Shown: in pieces, positions 12,466-20,810 of the stretch | Layout of the letters: every line of letters begins with the position of its first letter | Position numbering within the stretch: position 1 is the first letter of the stretch | From: Xanthocytophaga agilis | GTDB lineage: Bacteria > Bacteroidota > Bacteroidia > Cytophagales > 172606-1 | Assembly (NCBI RefSeq): GCF_030068605.1 | Contig: NZ_JASJOU010000001.1 | Span: 1,302,001-1,366,000, forward strand | Reading direction: 5' to 3' | DNA: 64,000 nucleotides | The notes under the pieces: model-generated | Databases searched by the model: none | Told to the model about the DNA's origin: nothing | The model's input: the letters and a program-made list of their open reading frames with translations, nothing else | Translations under genes and position numbers: made by a program

Positions 12466-12804
12466 ATGTCTGAAGAAATAAAGAAGATATACTACACCAT
12501 TAGTGAAGTTGCAGATAAATTCAATGTAACGGCATCGCTGTTACGCTTTTGGGAAAGTGAGTTCCCAATGTTAAAACCCAGGAAGAATAAAAAAGGAGAT
12601 CGCCGCTATACCGAGAAAGATATAGAAGTTGTGCAAAAGATATATCACCTTGTCAAAGAAAAGGGGTATACACTACAGGGAGCGAAAGAGATGATAAGAA
12701 GTAAAGCCAATCAGCCCCCTGACAAAGCAGCTATTATTGAATCTTTAGAAAATCTCAAGACTTTTCTTTCTCAACTGAAAGAAAGACTGGAGCAAAGCTC
12801 CTAA
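12466..12804 (+). CDS. MerR family transcriptional regulator
   Basis: The 112-residue protein carries a MerR-type winged helix-turn-helix (residues about 7-75: YTISEVADKFNVTASLLRFWE, then a wing and RRYTEKDIEVV). A short helical tail for dimerisation follows. There is no effector-binding domain or metal-binding cysteine set, so the signal it reads is unknown. This small form is common in Bacteroidota beside an M23 peptidase gene, suggesting a link to cell-envelope control. That link is inference from position only. Confidence 0.92.
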   Translation: MSEEIKKIYYTISEVADKFNVTASLLRFWESEFPMLKPRKNKKGDRRYTEKDIEVVQKIYHLVKEKGYTLQGAKEMIRSKANQPPDKAAIIESLENLKTFLSQLKERLEQSS

Positions 12805-15276: not shown

Positions 15277-17181
15277 TTAGAATTTCCATCTGACAAATGC
15301 TTCCATGGCTGCGTATTCGGCCAAACCGAGTTTGTTATACAACTCTGCGGTTTTGCGATTACGATCTTCAGCCCTTTGCCAAAATTCGCGTTCATCTGTT
15401 CCCTGAAATACAACTCCGTCCTTTTGAGACTGGTGCTTAAATATACCCAAGCGCTTCTTCATTACCTGATCCGGACTCATTGGTACAGCCATTTCAATCT
15501 GATCAATATCCCACTCAGCCCAGGCACCTTTGTATAACCATACCCAACAATCTTTCATAAAATCTTTGGCTTTCAAACGACGTAATGCTTCCATTACGGC
15601 ATCCAGACAAACTTTATGTGTACCATGCGGATCGGCTAAGTCTCCTGCTGCATATACCTGATGGGGTTTTACCTTGTCGATAAGGTCTGTCACAAGCTGA
15701 TAATCTTCTTCACCCAAAGGCTTTTTCTGGACAAGTCCTGTTTCGTAAAAAGGCATAGTCAGAAAATGTACATTTTCCATAGGGATACCAACAAAACGAC
15801 ATGTATTTTTCGCTTCACCCTTACGAATCAATCCCTTAATATAACGAACAGCATCTGTATCCTTTTCGCTATCTTTTTTGGTTCGCAAAAAGCGGGCAGC
15901 ATCTCTGAAGATTTTATCAGCCTGAGGACTGGTAATATTAAAACGATCATTAAAATCTACTACAAAGTCAGCAAATCGTAGAGCCTCATCATCTGCCACA
16001 GCAATATTACCAGATGTTTGGTAAGCTACATGTACTTCATGTCCCTGATCTACCAGACGCTGGAAGGTGCCACCCATAGAAATAATATCATCATCCGGAT
16101 GAGGACTAAATATCAGACATCGTTTCTTTACAGGATCAGCCCTTTCAGGACGATTGGTATCATCGGCATTTGGCTTTCCACCGGGCCATCCGGTAATAGT
16201 ATGTTGAAGCCAGTTAAACACATCAATATTCAAGTCATATGCCTGTCCGTGTTGTGCCAACAGATCACTGAGTCCATAATCATTATAGTCTTTATTGGTC
16301 AGTTTCAGAACGGGTTTCCCCAAAGTCAGTGCCAGATTCGCTACAGCCTTCTTAATCATCGCACGATCCCACACCACATCATCAATCAGCCAAGGTGCCT
16401 TACGGCTGGTTAGTTCAGATGCGGCAGACTCATCCAGTACTACAGACACGTTGTGATGTCCTTGTAGATAAGAAGCAGGAACCGATTCTACAACAGGTCC
16501 CTCTACTGCCTGTTTGATGATTCCAGCTTTATGTTCTCCCCAGGCAATCAATACCACTCGTTTAGCCTGTAATATGGGTAATACCCCCATTGTGATGGCT
16601 CTTCGTGGTACTTTTGACAACCCACCAAAGTCCATTGCAGCATCAACGCGTGTCGTCTGATCCAGTGTCATCAAACGGGTACGTGAATTTTCGTGTGATC
16701 CTGGTTCATTAAACCCAATATGGCCATTTCTTCCTATACCCAATAACTGAAAATCCAGTCCGCCATGCAACTCCATTTGCTTCTCATAATCCATACAGTA
16801 TTCCCGTATTTTTTCCATTGACAGAGTCCCGTCCGGAATGTGGTAATTTTGTACAGGAATATCCACATGATCAAATAAAAACTCTTTCATAAACCGAACA
16901 TAACTTTGCAAAGCATCCGGTTGCATGGGATAATATTCATCCAGATTGAAAGTAATTACATTCTGAAAGCTTAATCCCTCTTTTCTGTGTAGCCGAATTA
17001 GCTCGGCATAGACTTTTTTGGGAGATGATCCCGTTGCCAATCCCAGTACAGCTGGCTTACCTTCCTGTTGCTTTTGACGGATTAAAGCCGCAATTTCATT
17101 AGCTACAGCGGCAGAAGCTTCATCTGCCGTTCCATAAACACTGGTAGGAATTCGCTCATAACTCAATTGCTGCATAGACAA
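15277..17181 (-). CDS. nagB: NagB-like / PIG-L deacetylase-like fusion protein
   Basis: The 634-residue protein joins an N-terminal glucosamine-6-phosphate deaminase-type domain (about 10-260) to a C-terminal PIG-L/LmbE-like domain (about 353-630). In the first, LDEYY (Asp81) and GHIGFNEP (His154, Glu159) are present. The position matching the catalytic Asp141 of E. coli NagB is Asn152 (GIGRNGHIG). The second has the metal site HPDDD (361-365) and a later DPHGTHK segment. Such long NagB-like proteins occur in Bacteroidota and are usually annotated as deaminase. A joint deacetylase/deaminase role on amino-sugar phosphates is plausible but unproved. Confidence 0.85.
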   Translation of the reverse strand: MSMQQLSYERIPTSVYGTADEASAAVANEIAALIRQKQQEGKPAVLGLATGSSPKKVYAELIRLHRKEGLSFQNVITFNLDEYYPMQPDALQSYVRFMKEFLFDHVDIPVQNYHIPDGTLSMEKIREYCMDYEKQMELHGGLDFQLLGIGRNGHIGFNEPGSHENSRTRLMTLDQTTRVDAAMDFGGLSKVPRRAITMGVLPILQAKRVVLIAWGEHKAGIIKQAVEGPVVESVPASYLQGHHNVSVVLDESAASELTSRKAPWLIDDVVWDRAMIKKAVANLALTLGKPVLKLTNKDYNDYGLSDLLAQHGQAYDLNIDVFNWLQHTITGWPGGKPNADDTNRPERADPVKKRCLIFSPHPDDDIISMGGTFQRLVDQGHEVHVAYQTSGNIAVADDEALRFADFVVDFNDRFNITSPQADKIFRDAARFLRTKKDSEKDTDAVRYIKGLIRKGEAKNTCRFVGIPMENVHFLTMPFYETGLVQKKPLGEEDYQLVTDLIDKVKPHQVYAAGDLADPHGTHKVCLDAVMEALRRLKAKDFMKDCWVWLYKGAWAEWDIDQIEMAVPMSPDQVMKKRLGIFKHQSQKDGVVFQGTDEREFWQRAEDRNRKTAELYNKLGLAEYAAMEAFVRWKF

Positions 17182-17652
17182 ATAGTTGGTTATTCTGAAA
17201 AAAAAGACATGACACCTTGTACTCTAATGTATAAAAATATAATTTGCAGATAAATCACCGAAAAATAGTGTAATTTTTTAATCCTGGAAACTCAAAGATT
17301 CGTTATACTATTCTATTCTTTAATAAATTTAATATTTGTGTAAGACCCACTGTTTGAAGTAACCACTCCAAACCATTATAATTTAACAGTTAAATAGTTC
17401 AAAACTAACTGCTTATTGGTGCAGTAGCCAAAATAAAAATATTTATAAAAATTAGGACTTTTCTGTACAACTTTTTTACCATTCTTCCGTATAAAGGATA
17501 TGGTATGATTTTTTACTGAAAGTAGCATAGGAGAAATCTGTTTAATATGTTACTTTTTTTTATTAGGGGGTCAATTTTAATAAGATTTTCTACTGTTTTT
17601 CACATAACCTTGTATATCAACCGTTGTCACATTTTTTATTGCATTACTCTTT
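17182..17652. other. AT-rich intergenic region between divergent nagB-like and HsdS-like genes
   Basis: About 470 bases of low GC with several T- and A-runs and no convincing ORF or RNA gene. It should hold promoters for both sides, but no clear TTG/TAnnTTTG pair was found. Confidence 0.4.
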
Positions 17653-18228
17653 ATGATTATGAAATTACATGACATAGCTGACATCAAAACTGGTATAACT
17701 TTTCGAAATCGCTTGTTAGACAATCTGGATGGGGAAATAGAAGTTATACAAATGCGTGACATTAATGCTGACTTATCAATCTCAGGCCGTCTTGTTCGCA
17801 TTAGCAATGAACAGATCAAGGCAAAACATTTTTTGCAACCTGGTCAGCTGATTCTACTCGCAAAAGGAAAGTATACAAAAGCCTGCATGATTGAACCGTC
17901 AGAGAAAAAGAGAGTTATTTCTTCCGCATTTTTTTCCATCCGCATTAAGCCTACCCAAAAAGTTCTTCCCGAGTACCTGAGATGGTTTCTCAATCTTCCC
18001 CAAAGTGAAACCTATTTTCGTTCCAATGCATCAGGCACAAGTATGTTTTCACTTCCAATGAGTGTTCTGAAAAATCTGGATGTAGCAGTTCCTCCCATTG
18101 AAGTACAGGAAAAAATTGTACATCTTGTCAATGACCGGGAAAAAGAGAAGGCAACTTTAATGGCACTTGAGGAGAAAAAAGATTCATATCTGCAACAACT
18201 CATGTTACACGAAGTGTATAAAGACTAA
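17653..18228 (+). CDS. HsdS-like single target-recognition-domain protein
   Basis: The 191-residue protein resembles half of a type I restriction specificity subunit: one target-recognition domain (LHDIADIKTGITFRNRLL at the start, then SGTSMFSLPMSVLKNL and VPPIEVQEKIV) and one C-terminal helical spacer (about 155-185). Full HsdS has two of each at about 400 residues. Half-size S subunits can work as dimers. It is followed 47 bases later by an HsdM-like gene, and no nuclease gene (HsdR) is nearby. The order S then M is the reverse of the common one. An alternative start is Met3. Confidence 0.82.
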   Translation: MIMKLHDIADIKTGITFRNRLLDNLDGEIEVIQMRDINADLSISGRLVRISNEQIKAKHFLQPGQLILLAKGKYTKACMIEPSEKKRVISSAFFSIRIKPTQKVLPEYLRWFLNLPQSETYFRSNASGTSMFSLPMSVLKNLDVAVPPIEVQEKIVHLVNDREKEKATLMALEEKKDSYLQQLMLHEVYKD

Positions 18229-18275
18229 ATTGATAACAAATTCTAACTCCTTAAATCAGTAACCTTTCAACTCTC

Positions 18276-19730
18276 ATGGCTATGAACAAAGATTTCATTG
18301 TATCTCTCACGAAATACTACCGCAAATTCAGAGACAAGGACAAGAGTTCTGAGATCTTTGTGCACTTTCTGGCGGTATTGGCATTGAAGTTTATTCAGGA
18401 GACGCACGAAAAGCCTTATTTCAAAGATTTAAAGGCATCCACAATCAAATCTATTTTTTCTATCTGGAACAATCTGTCTCAGACCGGTACAGCCAGTCGT
18501 CTGGATAATATTATAGAGATATTACAGGAAGAAAACAGCGAGATATTCAGCAAACTTTTTCAATCTGTTTTTTTCAGAAAACTTTCATTTAGTGATACAG
18601 ATGTAGATCGTGATACCAAGTTGGTTCAATTACTAGAAGATCTGGAAGGAATCAGCTTTGGAAATACACTGAAAGCAGTAGAAGAAAATGGTTCTTCTGT
18701 AGGATATCTGATAGAAAAATTTACTGAAGAAAGCTTCCACAAAGAAGGCTTTCTGTATACACCACGTAGTATTGCCAATATGATGGCTCAAATGGCTAAT
18801 CTTGAGTCAGCTCATTCTGTATATGATCCAGCCGCAGGTATTGGTACCTTACTGGTGCAAGCAGCCAAAGTAGGTAAGTTAGCCGATACCAGCTTATTTG
18901 GACAGGATATTCAGAGTCCTTATGTTGAACTGGCTCGTTTCCACCTTTTCTTTAATGGCATATTTAATGCCTCTCTGGAAGTTGGTGACAGCTTATCAAA
19001 AACACGCTCCAGTAAACGTACATATGATTGTGTACTTACTCAGCCTCCATTCCGTGAAAAATTACTATTACCAGCTAACCCTCGTGATTTCCTACAACCG
19101 ATAAAACGGAGAAAACGGAATCTAAGCTTTGCAGCTGAAAATAATGTTACGGGGCCTGTACGTATGCGCAGACAAGCTGAGCATCTGGATTTTCTCACTC
19201 AGGCAATGGATTCTCTGAATGAAACCGGGAAAGCGATATTGATTGTCCCTCACGGCTTGTTGTTCAAAACGGGAGTAGCTTATCAGATTCGTCGCAAAAT
19301 GGTTAATAATAACCTAGTTGAAGCAGTAGTTGACCTTCCTCCACATGTGTTCTACAGCAGCAAAATCAATGCAGCCATTCTTGTCCTGAATAAGAATAAG
19401 ACGCATGATAATATACTGTTTATTGATGCATCATCCTTGTATGACTCTGATCGTAGAAGAAATAAGATACGCACCTCACACAGTAAGCAGGTAATGGATG
19501 CATTCCGCAAATTTGCGACACAAGAAGGACTATCCTATCGGGCTTCTCAGTCAGAAATAGAAAATGAGAGAAACAATTATAACCTGACAGCAAAACGCTA
19601 TGTTCAGGCACATGAAAGAATACCTGATGTCAACTTAAAAGAGTTAATGAACGAAATCGAATCACTGGAAAAAACACTTTCCAATATTCAGGATCGGATT
19701 AAAACAGAAATGGCATCTTTAGTAAAATAA
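18276..19730 (+). CDS. HsdM-like N6-adenine DNA methyltransferase, altered motif IV
   Basis: The 484-residue protein has the type I M-subunit layout: helical N-terminus (1-155), YTPRSIANMM (161-170), SAM-binding motif I DPAAGIG (184-190), motif IV, and the typical VPHGLLFKTGVAYQIRRK and LPPHVFYSSKINAAILVLNK segments, ending in a coiled coil. Motif IV, normally NPPF or NPPY, reads QPPF (Gln256-Phe259). Since the Asn (or Asp/Ser) binds the adenine amino group, activity is uncertain. It pairs with the upstream HsdS-like gene. No HsdR is present, so it is at most an orphan methylase or a DNA-binding module. Confidence 0.85.
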   Translation: MAMNKDFIVSLTKYYRKFRDKDKSSEIFVHFLAVLALKFIQETHEKPYFKDLKASTIKSIFSIWNNLSQTGTASRLDNIIEILQEENSEIFSKLFQSVFFRKLSFSDTDVDRDTKLVQLLEDLEGISFGNTLKAVEENGSSVGYLIEKFTEESFHKEGFLYTPRSIANMMAQMANLESAHSVYDPAAGIGTLLVQAAKVGKLADTSLFGQDIQSPYVELARFHLFFNGIFNASLEVGDSLSKTRSSKRTYDCVLTQPPFREKLLLPANPRDFLQPIKRRKRNLSFAAENNVTGPVRMRRQAEHLDFLTQAMDSLNETGKAILIVPHGLLFKTGVAYQIRRKMVNNNLVEAVVDLPPHVFYSSKINAAILVLNKNKTHDNILFIDASSLYDSDRRRNKIRTSHSKQVMDAFRKFATQEGLSYRASQSEIENERNNYNLTAKRYVQAHERIPDVNLKELMNEIESLEKTLSNIQDRIKTEMASLVK

Positions 19731-19733
19731 AAA

Positions 19734-19767
19734 AATAACAAAGCCCTTTTCCAAGGGCTTTGTTATT
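19734..19767. terminator. bidirectional terminator between the HsdM-like and PhoD-like genes
   Basis: A perfect 15-bp stem (19734-19748 with 19753-19767) closes a TTCC loop, between convergent genes. Confidence 0.88.
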
Positions 19768-19775
19768 TCTACGTT

Positions 19776-20810
19776 CTAGAAAGAAAAGCTTTCATTCAAA
19801 TACAACACATTTTCTTTTCCCCGTATCTGTATATTTACAGTAGGTTTAGGAGTTGTCCAGTCTATATTCATTATTCCAAAATTCAACTGATTTACCAGAG
19901 CACCCACACGATATTTATTGTCTTCACCTGTATTATTTGTAGAAGAATGTGTTAAACCACTCGATGTCACTTCCCAGATAGGATAAGGCATCCCTTCTGG
20001 CTGGTAACGGCTCACTTCACCAATATGACGGTCACCACTTAACAGAACAACTCCGGCAGGCTTGTTTTTTACCAGAAGATCAAAAAAACGTTTCCGGGCC
20101 TGAGGAAAATTTGCCCACTTTTCAAAACGTTGTTCTTCGGGAATAAACTGTACGCCACAAGCAATAATATGTATGGCAGCTTTGCTACCTGTTAATTCTT
20201 TTTCCAACCAGTTCCATTGTTCCTCTCCTAAAAAAGAACCTGTTTCATTGGCTATATACCAGCCATCTTCCCGGCGTAATTCTTCACGAAAATAGCGACC
20301 ATCCAATAAAATAATCTTTATCTGCTGCTTTCCAGATCCATATACATAAGAACCATATGCACCTTCATGTTTGCGACGCGAACTGGTAGCAGGCTCACCC
20401 AAAAAATCAAGCATCAATTGCTGGGATTCTGTTTTCTTTGGATAATTCATTCCGCCATCATTTACTCCATAATCATGATCATCCCATATACCAATAACAG
20501 GTACTGAGGCTGTTAACTTCTGATATCCAGGATTTTGTTTTTGCGCATCATATTTTTGCTTCAAAACACTCATATCTTCTGTATCTCCATATACATTATC
20601 ACCCAGCCACACCCAAAGCTGCGGTTTGTTTTCCAGAATAGGAGACCACAAAGGCTGAGGCAAATCATGTCTGCTACACGAGCCAAAAGCAATCCGGGAT
20701 AAGGAAGTGTTGGCAGATAGTATGTTGCTGTCCTGGTTGCTTGCAGGAACTTTGCATCCATAAAACACCAGCACAAAGCTCCATAGCACAAAGAAATAAA
20801 CCTTAATCAT
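19776..20810 (-). CDS. PhoD-like alkaline phosphatase/phosphodiesterase lipoprotein
   Basis: The 344-residue protein starts with a lipoprotein signal (Cys19 in FYGCK) and has metallophosphatase motifs of the PhoD type: GSCSRHD, WLGDNVYGD, WDDHDYG, LDGRYFRE and LSGDRHIGE. These coordinate metal ions for cleavage of phosphate esters outside the cytoplasm. The chosen ATG at 20810 gives a clean signal peptide; the longer frame from 20846 places 12 extra residues before it. The substrate is unknown. It is a single gene. Confidence 0.9.
   Translation of the reverse strand: MIKVYFFVLWSFVLVFYGCKVPASNQDSNILSANTSLSRIAFGSCSRHDLPQPLWSPILENKPQLWVWLGDNVYGDTEDMSVLKQKYDAQKQNPGYQKLTASVPVIGIWDDHDYGVNDGGMNYPKKTESQQLMLDFLGEPATSSRRKHEGAYGSYVYGSGKQQIKIILLDGRYFREELRREDGWYIANETGSFLGEEQWNWLEKELTGSKAAIHIIACGVQFIPEEQRFEKWANFPQARKRFFDLLVKNKPAGVVLLSGDRHIGEVSRYQPEGMPYPIWEVTSSGLTHSSTNNTGEDNKYRVGALVNQLNFGIMNIDWTTPKPTVNIQIRGKENVLYLNESFSF

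Follow-up and report, generated by a model that had tools for sequence, protein, structure and literature searches.

What do specificity (S) and modification (M) subunits of the Type I kind do when no nuclease gene accompanies them and glutamine stands where the catalytic motif IV of the M subunit should carry asparagine? Two adjoining genes of Xanthocytophaga agilis raise this question. They lie in a stretch of 64,000 nucleotides of the 9.77 Mb genome (1302001–1366000 on contig 1), which is called the window throughout and from whose first letter all coordinates are counted. An earlier, sequence-only reading had proposed that the pair may bind DNA and S-adenosylmethionine (SAM) with methylation lost or altered, as a regulator or a defence element, and had called for an alignment of homologues at motif IV and a search for conserved neighbours. 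The features concerned are listed here, parent-type systems being the related short-S operons described below.

17451..17652, + strand: leader 5′ of the S gene (comparison with the sister species)
17653..18228, + strand: short (half-length) HsdS-like subunit (ORF, Pfam, predicted model, fold match)
18276..19730, + strand: HsdM-like subunit with QPPF replacing NPPF at motif IV (ORF, Pfam, alignment, fold match)
18825..18854, + strand: SAM-binding motif I, DPAAGIGTLL, kept; codons 184–193 of M (alignment)
19041..19052, + strand: motif IV, QPPF, codons 256–259 of M; parent-type systems have Asn at 256 (alignment)
19053..19190, + strand: loop after motif IV, replaced; codons 260–305 of M (alignment, model)
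19731..19770, no strand assigned: stem-loop with T-tail between the convergent M and PhoD-like genes (terminator search)

The open reading frames agree exactly with the half-length S followed by HsdM that had been proposed for 17653–19730. S is a protein of 191 aa with a single Methylase_S match (Pfam, residues 2–164); its predicted model (mean pLDDT 91.4) comprises one target recognition domain (TRD), at about residues 1–147, and a C-terminal end formed by one long helix (149–189). M has 484 aa and an N6_Mtase match (Pfam, E 1.3e-60), and its predicted model has a mean pLDDT of 84.6, with residues 280–301 and 447–451 below 50. The best fold matches for the M model are the M subunits of Type I enzymes and PacII (3lkd_B, Z 34.0; 7vru_A, Z 33.0), while the S model matches Esub1 first (Z 21.1) and then the S subunits of PacII and Type I enzymes. 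The M protein has the N6_Mtase/HsdM fold of a Type I M subunit; S possesses one TRD where a Type I S subunit has two, and HsdR accompanies the pair in none of the eight genomes of the family. The pair is flanked at its 5′ side by a divergent NagB/PIG-L-type gene and at its 3′ side by a convergent PhoD-like gene, with no nuclease gene beside it among the ORFs and Pfam matches of the window flanks and no Rfam match within 17000–20000. The stem-loop at 19731..19770 was reported for the − strand, its stem being an inverted repeat, and is a probable terminator. With one TRD, no adjoining R and the asparagine gone, the pair fails as a complete Type I system; it is a derivative variant of that known kind.

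Orthologues were sought in the GTDB family of the window genome, presumably Rhodocytophagaceae (Cytophagales) from the NCBI placement of the genus Xanthocytophaga, which was sampled with eight genomes of different species in three genera, the window genome included. An M orthologue is present in all eight; a search of a 291-genome sample of the order returned nine proteins passing E 1e-50, namely these eight and one relative of 32% identity. S lies directly 5′ of M in every family genome, at a gap of 2–373 bases and in several genomic contexts, and no other Methylase_S or HSDR_N match adjoins the pair in any of the eight. Fixed in the clade (8/8 genomes) with the endonuclease not adjoining, the pair is a clade-conserved orphan module. 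Three of the eight genomes are 72%–75% complete or more than 5% contaminated (completeness 72% for G007 and 75% for G002; contamination 7% for G003), and the M frame of G002 ends slightly early, at 467 aa. The S and M trees each need only one change per genus, the comparison being one of these two trees with the genera, and genus g2 has a support of 88/84, unstarred, in the M tree.

From genus to genus the flanks of the pair vary. All three genomes that represent the genus of the window have the divergent NagB/PIG-L-type gene, as does G005, of another genus. In the window an aquaporin-type gene (MIP) lies on the opposite strand, 6.6 kb 3′ of M; G006 has it in a like position, and in the three g2 genomes it is close to the 3′ side of M. 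The search for conserved neighbours came back empty: no gene is common to all eight loci in the stretches compared, that of G007 being only 5 kb.

The eight orthologues score 350–371 bits against the S profile; outside the family no score exceeds 116 bits among the genomes sampled from the order and the class, or 134 bits among those from the phylum; genomes over the S thresholds numbered, own family included, 23 of 291 in the order and 20 of 395 in the class, and 23 of 395 in the phylum sample. The nearest relatives found for both genes are operons of the form "short S – M – (accessory) – long S – R" in Bacteroidota and proteobacteria, here termed parent-type. In the first outside set of 15 loci (14 plus L023), a short S of 182–219 aa precedes M, which has 507–526 aa in the 14 loci with a whole M; the profile picked up a longer S further downstream in 11 of the 15, and six of the 14 stretches with a whole M contain a downstream frame of 993–1076 aa on the same strand, which is R by position. 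R is annotated as such in four plasmid operons, all with the order S, M, S, R, and in Staphylococcus nepalensis, with the order R, S, M, S. Identity to the window proteins is 25%–33% for the parent-type short S (15 aligned) and 25%–29% for M (14 aligned). Parent-type operons are like the pair in having S then M at the 5′ end; they differ in keeping the asparagine, in possessing, wherever the sequence extends far enough to show it, a long S and R, and in a short S that is less conserved than M.

A dedicated short S before M recurs across the phylum (L023, L064–L077, L156–L171), and the phylum short S proteins have a higher mean identity (46%, 15 rows) than the long S proteins (33%, 11 rows). 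The genes between M and the long S differ, encoding for example a Bro-N protein (L023, 10200–11060) or a Fic protein (L071, 5434–6828). On Enterobacter and Proteus plasmids (L173, 2492–8338; L172, 1135–6967), the short-S operon adjoins Tn7-like transposition genes, a possible route of spread. Family f103, in which S matches piled up in the phylum search, was considered as a second clade with a conserved S but belongs to the parent type: all ten M genes readable in the 11 loci inspected keep the asparagine. Fourteen match genomes of the phylum sample belong to a single genus of this family, g321.

Motif IV of the window M reads DCVLTQPPF, the glutamine being Q256, and the QPPF noted earlier in place of NPPF is not peculiar to this genome. 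QPPF is found in four orthologues (window, G006, G007, and G002), HPPF in three (G005, G001, and G003), and HPPY in one (G004); Gln or His thus occupies, in 8/8, the position that is Asn, Asp or Ser in the (D/N/S)PP(Y/F/W) of active amino-methyltransferases. The absence of Asn from the orthologues of all eight genomes, each of a different species, excludes chance or sequencing error. The alignment of homologues draws the same line, from Asn to Gln/His across the orthologous group: Asn stands in all 56 other HsdM genes read, with repeats removed, these being mostly the best matches to the S and M profiles rather than a random HsdM sample, with about 100 further class-level matches outside the count. 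The 56 are made up of the first outside loci with a whole M (14/14), the readable loci among 16 from the phylum search (14/14, two of them NPPL), the class-level loci outside the window genome (29/29, nine of which repeat the first outside set), five plasmid M genes, S. nepalensis (NPPY), G001 contig 8, and contig 17 of the window genome. In the midpoint-rooted M tree, the earliest branch is that of the two genus g3 genomes, which carry His (support 88/76); this would fit, tentatively given the rooting and the long branches, an asparagine lost before the genera split and a later exchange of His and Gln.

The remainder of M has been kept in part and remodelled in part. Residues D184, P185, A186, G188, G190, and L193 of the SAM-binding motif I are invariant in 8/8, as are the two prolines of motif IV, which are followed by F in seven orthologues and Y in one. 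Columns were counted as parent-invariant if 13 or more of the 14 parent-type M proteins share one residue there; of these 238, all eight orthologues keep the residue in 41, some of them in 93, and none in 104; in 23 of these 104 lost columns, one new residue is invariant across the eight. The new invariant residues include H155, F159, and L160, adjoining the T-P of motif X, and further K331, D353, S361, K363, N365, R393, and R395. The parent-type loop after motif IV (SLDKWG ... RG.PPKSKGD.A) is replaced in all eight orthologues.

Several of these features would suit a methyltransferase that is still active, with Gln or His taking over the role of Asn or with a pocket that methylates another base or nucleic acid—an orphan epigenetic enzyme established throughout the family and comparable with CamA, the orphan adenine methyltransferase of Clostridioides difficile. 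Motif I and the prolines of motif IV are intact, and H155, K331, D353, S361, K363, N365, R393, and R395 look like retooling rather than loss. Clade-wide orphan methyltransferases do exist, and CamA is like the pair in being clade-wide and without an endonuclease; both the S and M models match CamA chains in the fold search. CamA, however, is a single active chain, whereas the pair consists of two subunits with an altered motif IV. Replacement of the loop after motif IV argues against activity, and so does the interchange of Gln and His within the group, which would be odd for a catalytic residue. Three published mutants bear on the point, none of them a change of Asn to Gln or His; Y465 of DnmA is its motif-IV tyrosine. 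RM.BpuSI N406A has its methylation abolished and its SAM binding also lost (PMC3817140), M.PtoI N360A-W363A is severely compromised (PMC10050889), and DnmA Y465A has lost methylation and still binds DNA (PMC7261158). The motif of characterised enzymes is given as (D/N/S)PPY (PMC7261158) or NPPY/F/W (PMC10050889), none of which admits the residues found here. The chief competitor of the reading preferred below is thus an enzyme that stays active with altered chemistry, although this is unlikely.

The closest architecture described is the hsdRSMS type of staphylococci, S. xylosus among them (Schiffer et al. 2023, PMC10030836). Its hsdS_short, of 191 aa, lies directly before hsdM like the window S, a likeness of size and place that the earlier reading had not noted. 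Its authors regard it as a gene in its own right and not a truncated long S, and it stays conserved between strains whose methylation motifs differ; proper methylation needs hsdS_short and hsdS_long together, and attempts to place a plasmid-borne hsdS_short in E. coli proved toxic (PMC10030836). Target recognition by hsdS_short is considered unlikely by those authors and a stabilising role is suggested, which argues that a short S does not simply read sequence and has a more structural part. All eight family genomes have a short S, of about 190 aa, immediately 5′ of M; unlike the pair, hsdRSMS has a long two-TRD S and R in the same operon and is a complete active system, with NPPY in the M of S. 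nepalensis, whose plasmid appears in a table of that paper (PMC10030836). The short S of S. nepalensis is only distantly like that of the window (hhalign E 8e-6, probability 84%; 18% identity), and hence the same architecture is claimed here, and not close kinship.

Two further proteins resemble the window S. Esub1 (PDB 8vsq and 8vsr, Z 21.1 and 20.3) is likewise a stand-alone half-length S, but with an identity of just 16%; it is complexed with Prx, the streptococcal phage protein paratox, and a literature search for Esub1 returned no paper among its top results. Half-HsdS methyltransferases (PMC6158711) show that two copies of a half HsdS can together make a functional specificity unit; unlike the pair, these are active enzymes obtained by engineering a full-length S. 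Neither an HsdM with Gln or His at motif IV nor this pair was found described among the top-listed titles and abstract openings of a literature search, most subscription journals lying outside its coverage.

The requirement of hsdRSMS for its short S in correct methylation (PMC10030836) also raises the prospect of an action in trans, in which M and the short S join or poison resident or incoming short-S Type I complexes as a helper, decoy or immunity factor. Other Type I genes do occur in some family genomes, that of the window included (contig 17, with NPPF in M), and HSDR_N matches are found in 6/8, each on another contig or more than 70 kb from the pair; those of G006 are confined to frames 369 and 149 aa long, and G003 and G007 have none. 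The earlier description of the pair as being without a nuclease is accordingly right for the locus but does not extend to the whole genome, where HSDR_N matches stand on other contigs. Despite these matches, the short S is the sole Methylase_S match in G006 and G003, which makes an action in trans less likely, and mixed assembly is doubtful for an M that has lost 104 parent-invariant columns; the idea is improbable overall. The contig 17 locus of the window genome (L025, 9194–10626) is a second Type I locus whose M gene, NPPF at motif IV, is divided between two frames that overlap, so that the locus may be either broken or a misreading.

Conservation of the two subunits is inverted with respect to the parent type. 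S identity exceeds M identity in all 28 pairs of the eight orthologues (means 65.6% and 45.3%) and in none of the 91 pairs from 14 parent-type systems (means 45.4% and 72.1%), and in parent-type operons the long S varies even more (mean identity 33.3%, n = 11). Invariant in the eight orthologues are 79 of 191 positions in S and 93 columns over the 484 residues of M. The frozen S suggests a fixed DNA target. In the comparison of the window with its sister species G006, dN/dS comes to 0.034 in S and 0.025 in M; between G001 and G003, both of g2, it is 0.13 and 0.29, the remaining pairs tried being saturated. Such ratios point to strong purifying selection on the pair. A decaying restriction-system remnant of no present function, which the missing long S and R, the changed motif IV, and the diverged M might evoke, is strongly disfavoured and very improbable, since the frames are open in 8/8 genomes of three genera (even the 467-aa M of G002) and dN/dS of about 0.03 against the sister species, with 79 of 191 S positions invariant, shows that the pair is not decaying.

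The leader at 17451..17652 is 97%–100% identical to that of the sister species and the S and M coding windows are 81%–95% identical; dS against the sister species is raised in both genes (S 0.56, M 0.82; nine neighbours 0.07–0.42). A raised dS beside a near-identical leader may possibly reflect recombination with a more distant lineage.

A defence role, the other function proposed earlier, found no support: PADLOC matched one of ten neighbouring window proteins, a small protein at 12466–12804 with a weak mad1 match (34.7 bits) that lies 5 kb upstream of the pair with other genes between, the pair is present in 8/8 genomes, and S is frozen rather than variable. Membership of the MADS system was rejected, the NCBIfam equivalogs for MAD2 and MAD5 scoring 46.3 bits (cut-off 720) and 30.7 bits (cut-off 400); PADLOC placed the generic Type I subunits first on the pair and the mad2/mad5 matches lower. 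A currently mobile gene was likewise rejected on searches of viral, phage, and plasmid sequences. A scan of viral contigs with two short peptide patterns found no relatives of S, two phage records gave partial, weak S matches, and the plasmid S matches reach at most 35% among the rows listed (30 of 77 records). In the five plasmid regions inspected, four of them annotated S-M-S-R operons and one unannotated, every M keeps the asparagine.

The pair is best explained, with a probability of about 0.5, as an exapted M/short-S complex that binds DNA without methylating it and is likely regulatory. A Type I "short S – M – long S – R" operon would have lost its long S and R, probably before the genera of the family split, with the short S and M staying. 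Two short S subunits would be joined through their helices, each carrying one M, and the resulting symmetric M2(short S)2 complex would bind a fixed, short bipartite DNA site. With the adenine-polarising Asn gone from M and new invariant residues standing where old ones were, the complex would most likely bind DNA, perhaps together with SAM, and not methylate it. Its effect, regulatory or architectural, would then come from occupying its site, possibly in response to SAM. The earlier suggestion of a DNA- and SAM-binding pair with lost or altered methylation is partly supported, in that it fits the Q/H motif IV, the kept SAM motif, and the purifying selection.

Some observations speak against the preferred reading of a non-methylating complex. 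No binding site, regulated gene or neighbour common to the eight loci was found; counts of bipartite and palindromic motifs in the 380-base stretches upstream of the pair in the eight genomes, made for a self-regulation site, yielded only A/T runs. M retains both the SAM motif and, in motif IV, the PP-aromatic, as expected of an active enzyme. M diverges faster than S, which could reflect relaxed constraint on M between species. The loss of SAM binding in the published Asn-to-Ala mutant (PMC3817140) calls for caution, as SAM binding may be lost here too. The sample is just eight genomes, three of them incomplete or contaminated to the extent given above.

Restriction-modification genes are normally gained and lost, and their specificity parts diversify. 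The pair of this family displays the opposite pattern, being conserved with its S frozen. This may tentatively be ascribed to a single exaptation in the ancestor of Rhodocytophagaceae that gave rise to a sequence-specific regulator, fixed and made of two subunits. It would be a pseudo-methyltransferase, one by which DNA, and perhaps the SAM level, is read and DNA is not marked. Possibly, and with the same reserve for the two taken together, this pseudo-methyltransferase has D353, K363, N365, R393, and R395 placed around the Gln/His of motif IV. The evolutionary pattern is clear and unusual, and the function proposed for the pair is putative. The pair would thus provide a defined case of how a DNA methyltransferase complex turns into a non-enzymatic regulator, and a case for asking what the short S of hsdRSMS, itself poorly understood, does alone.
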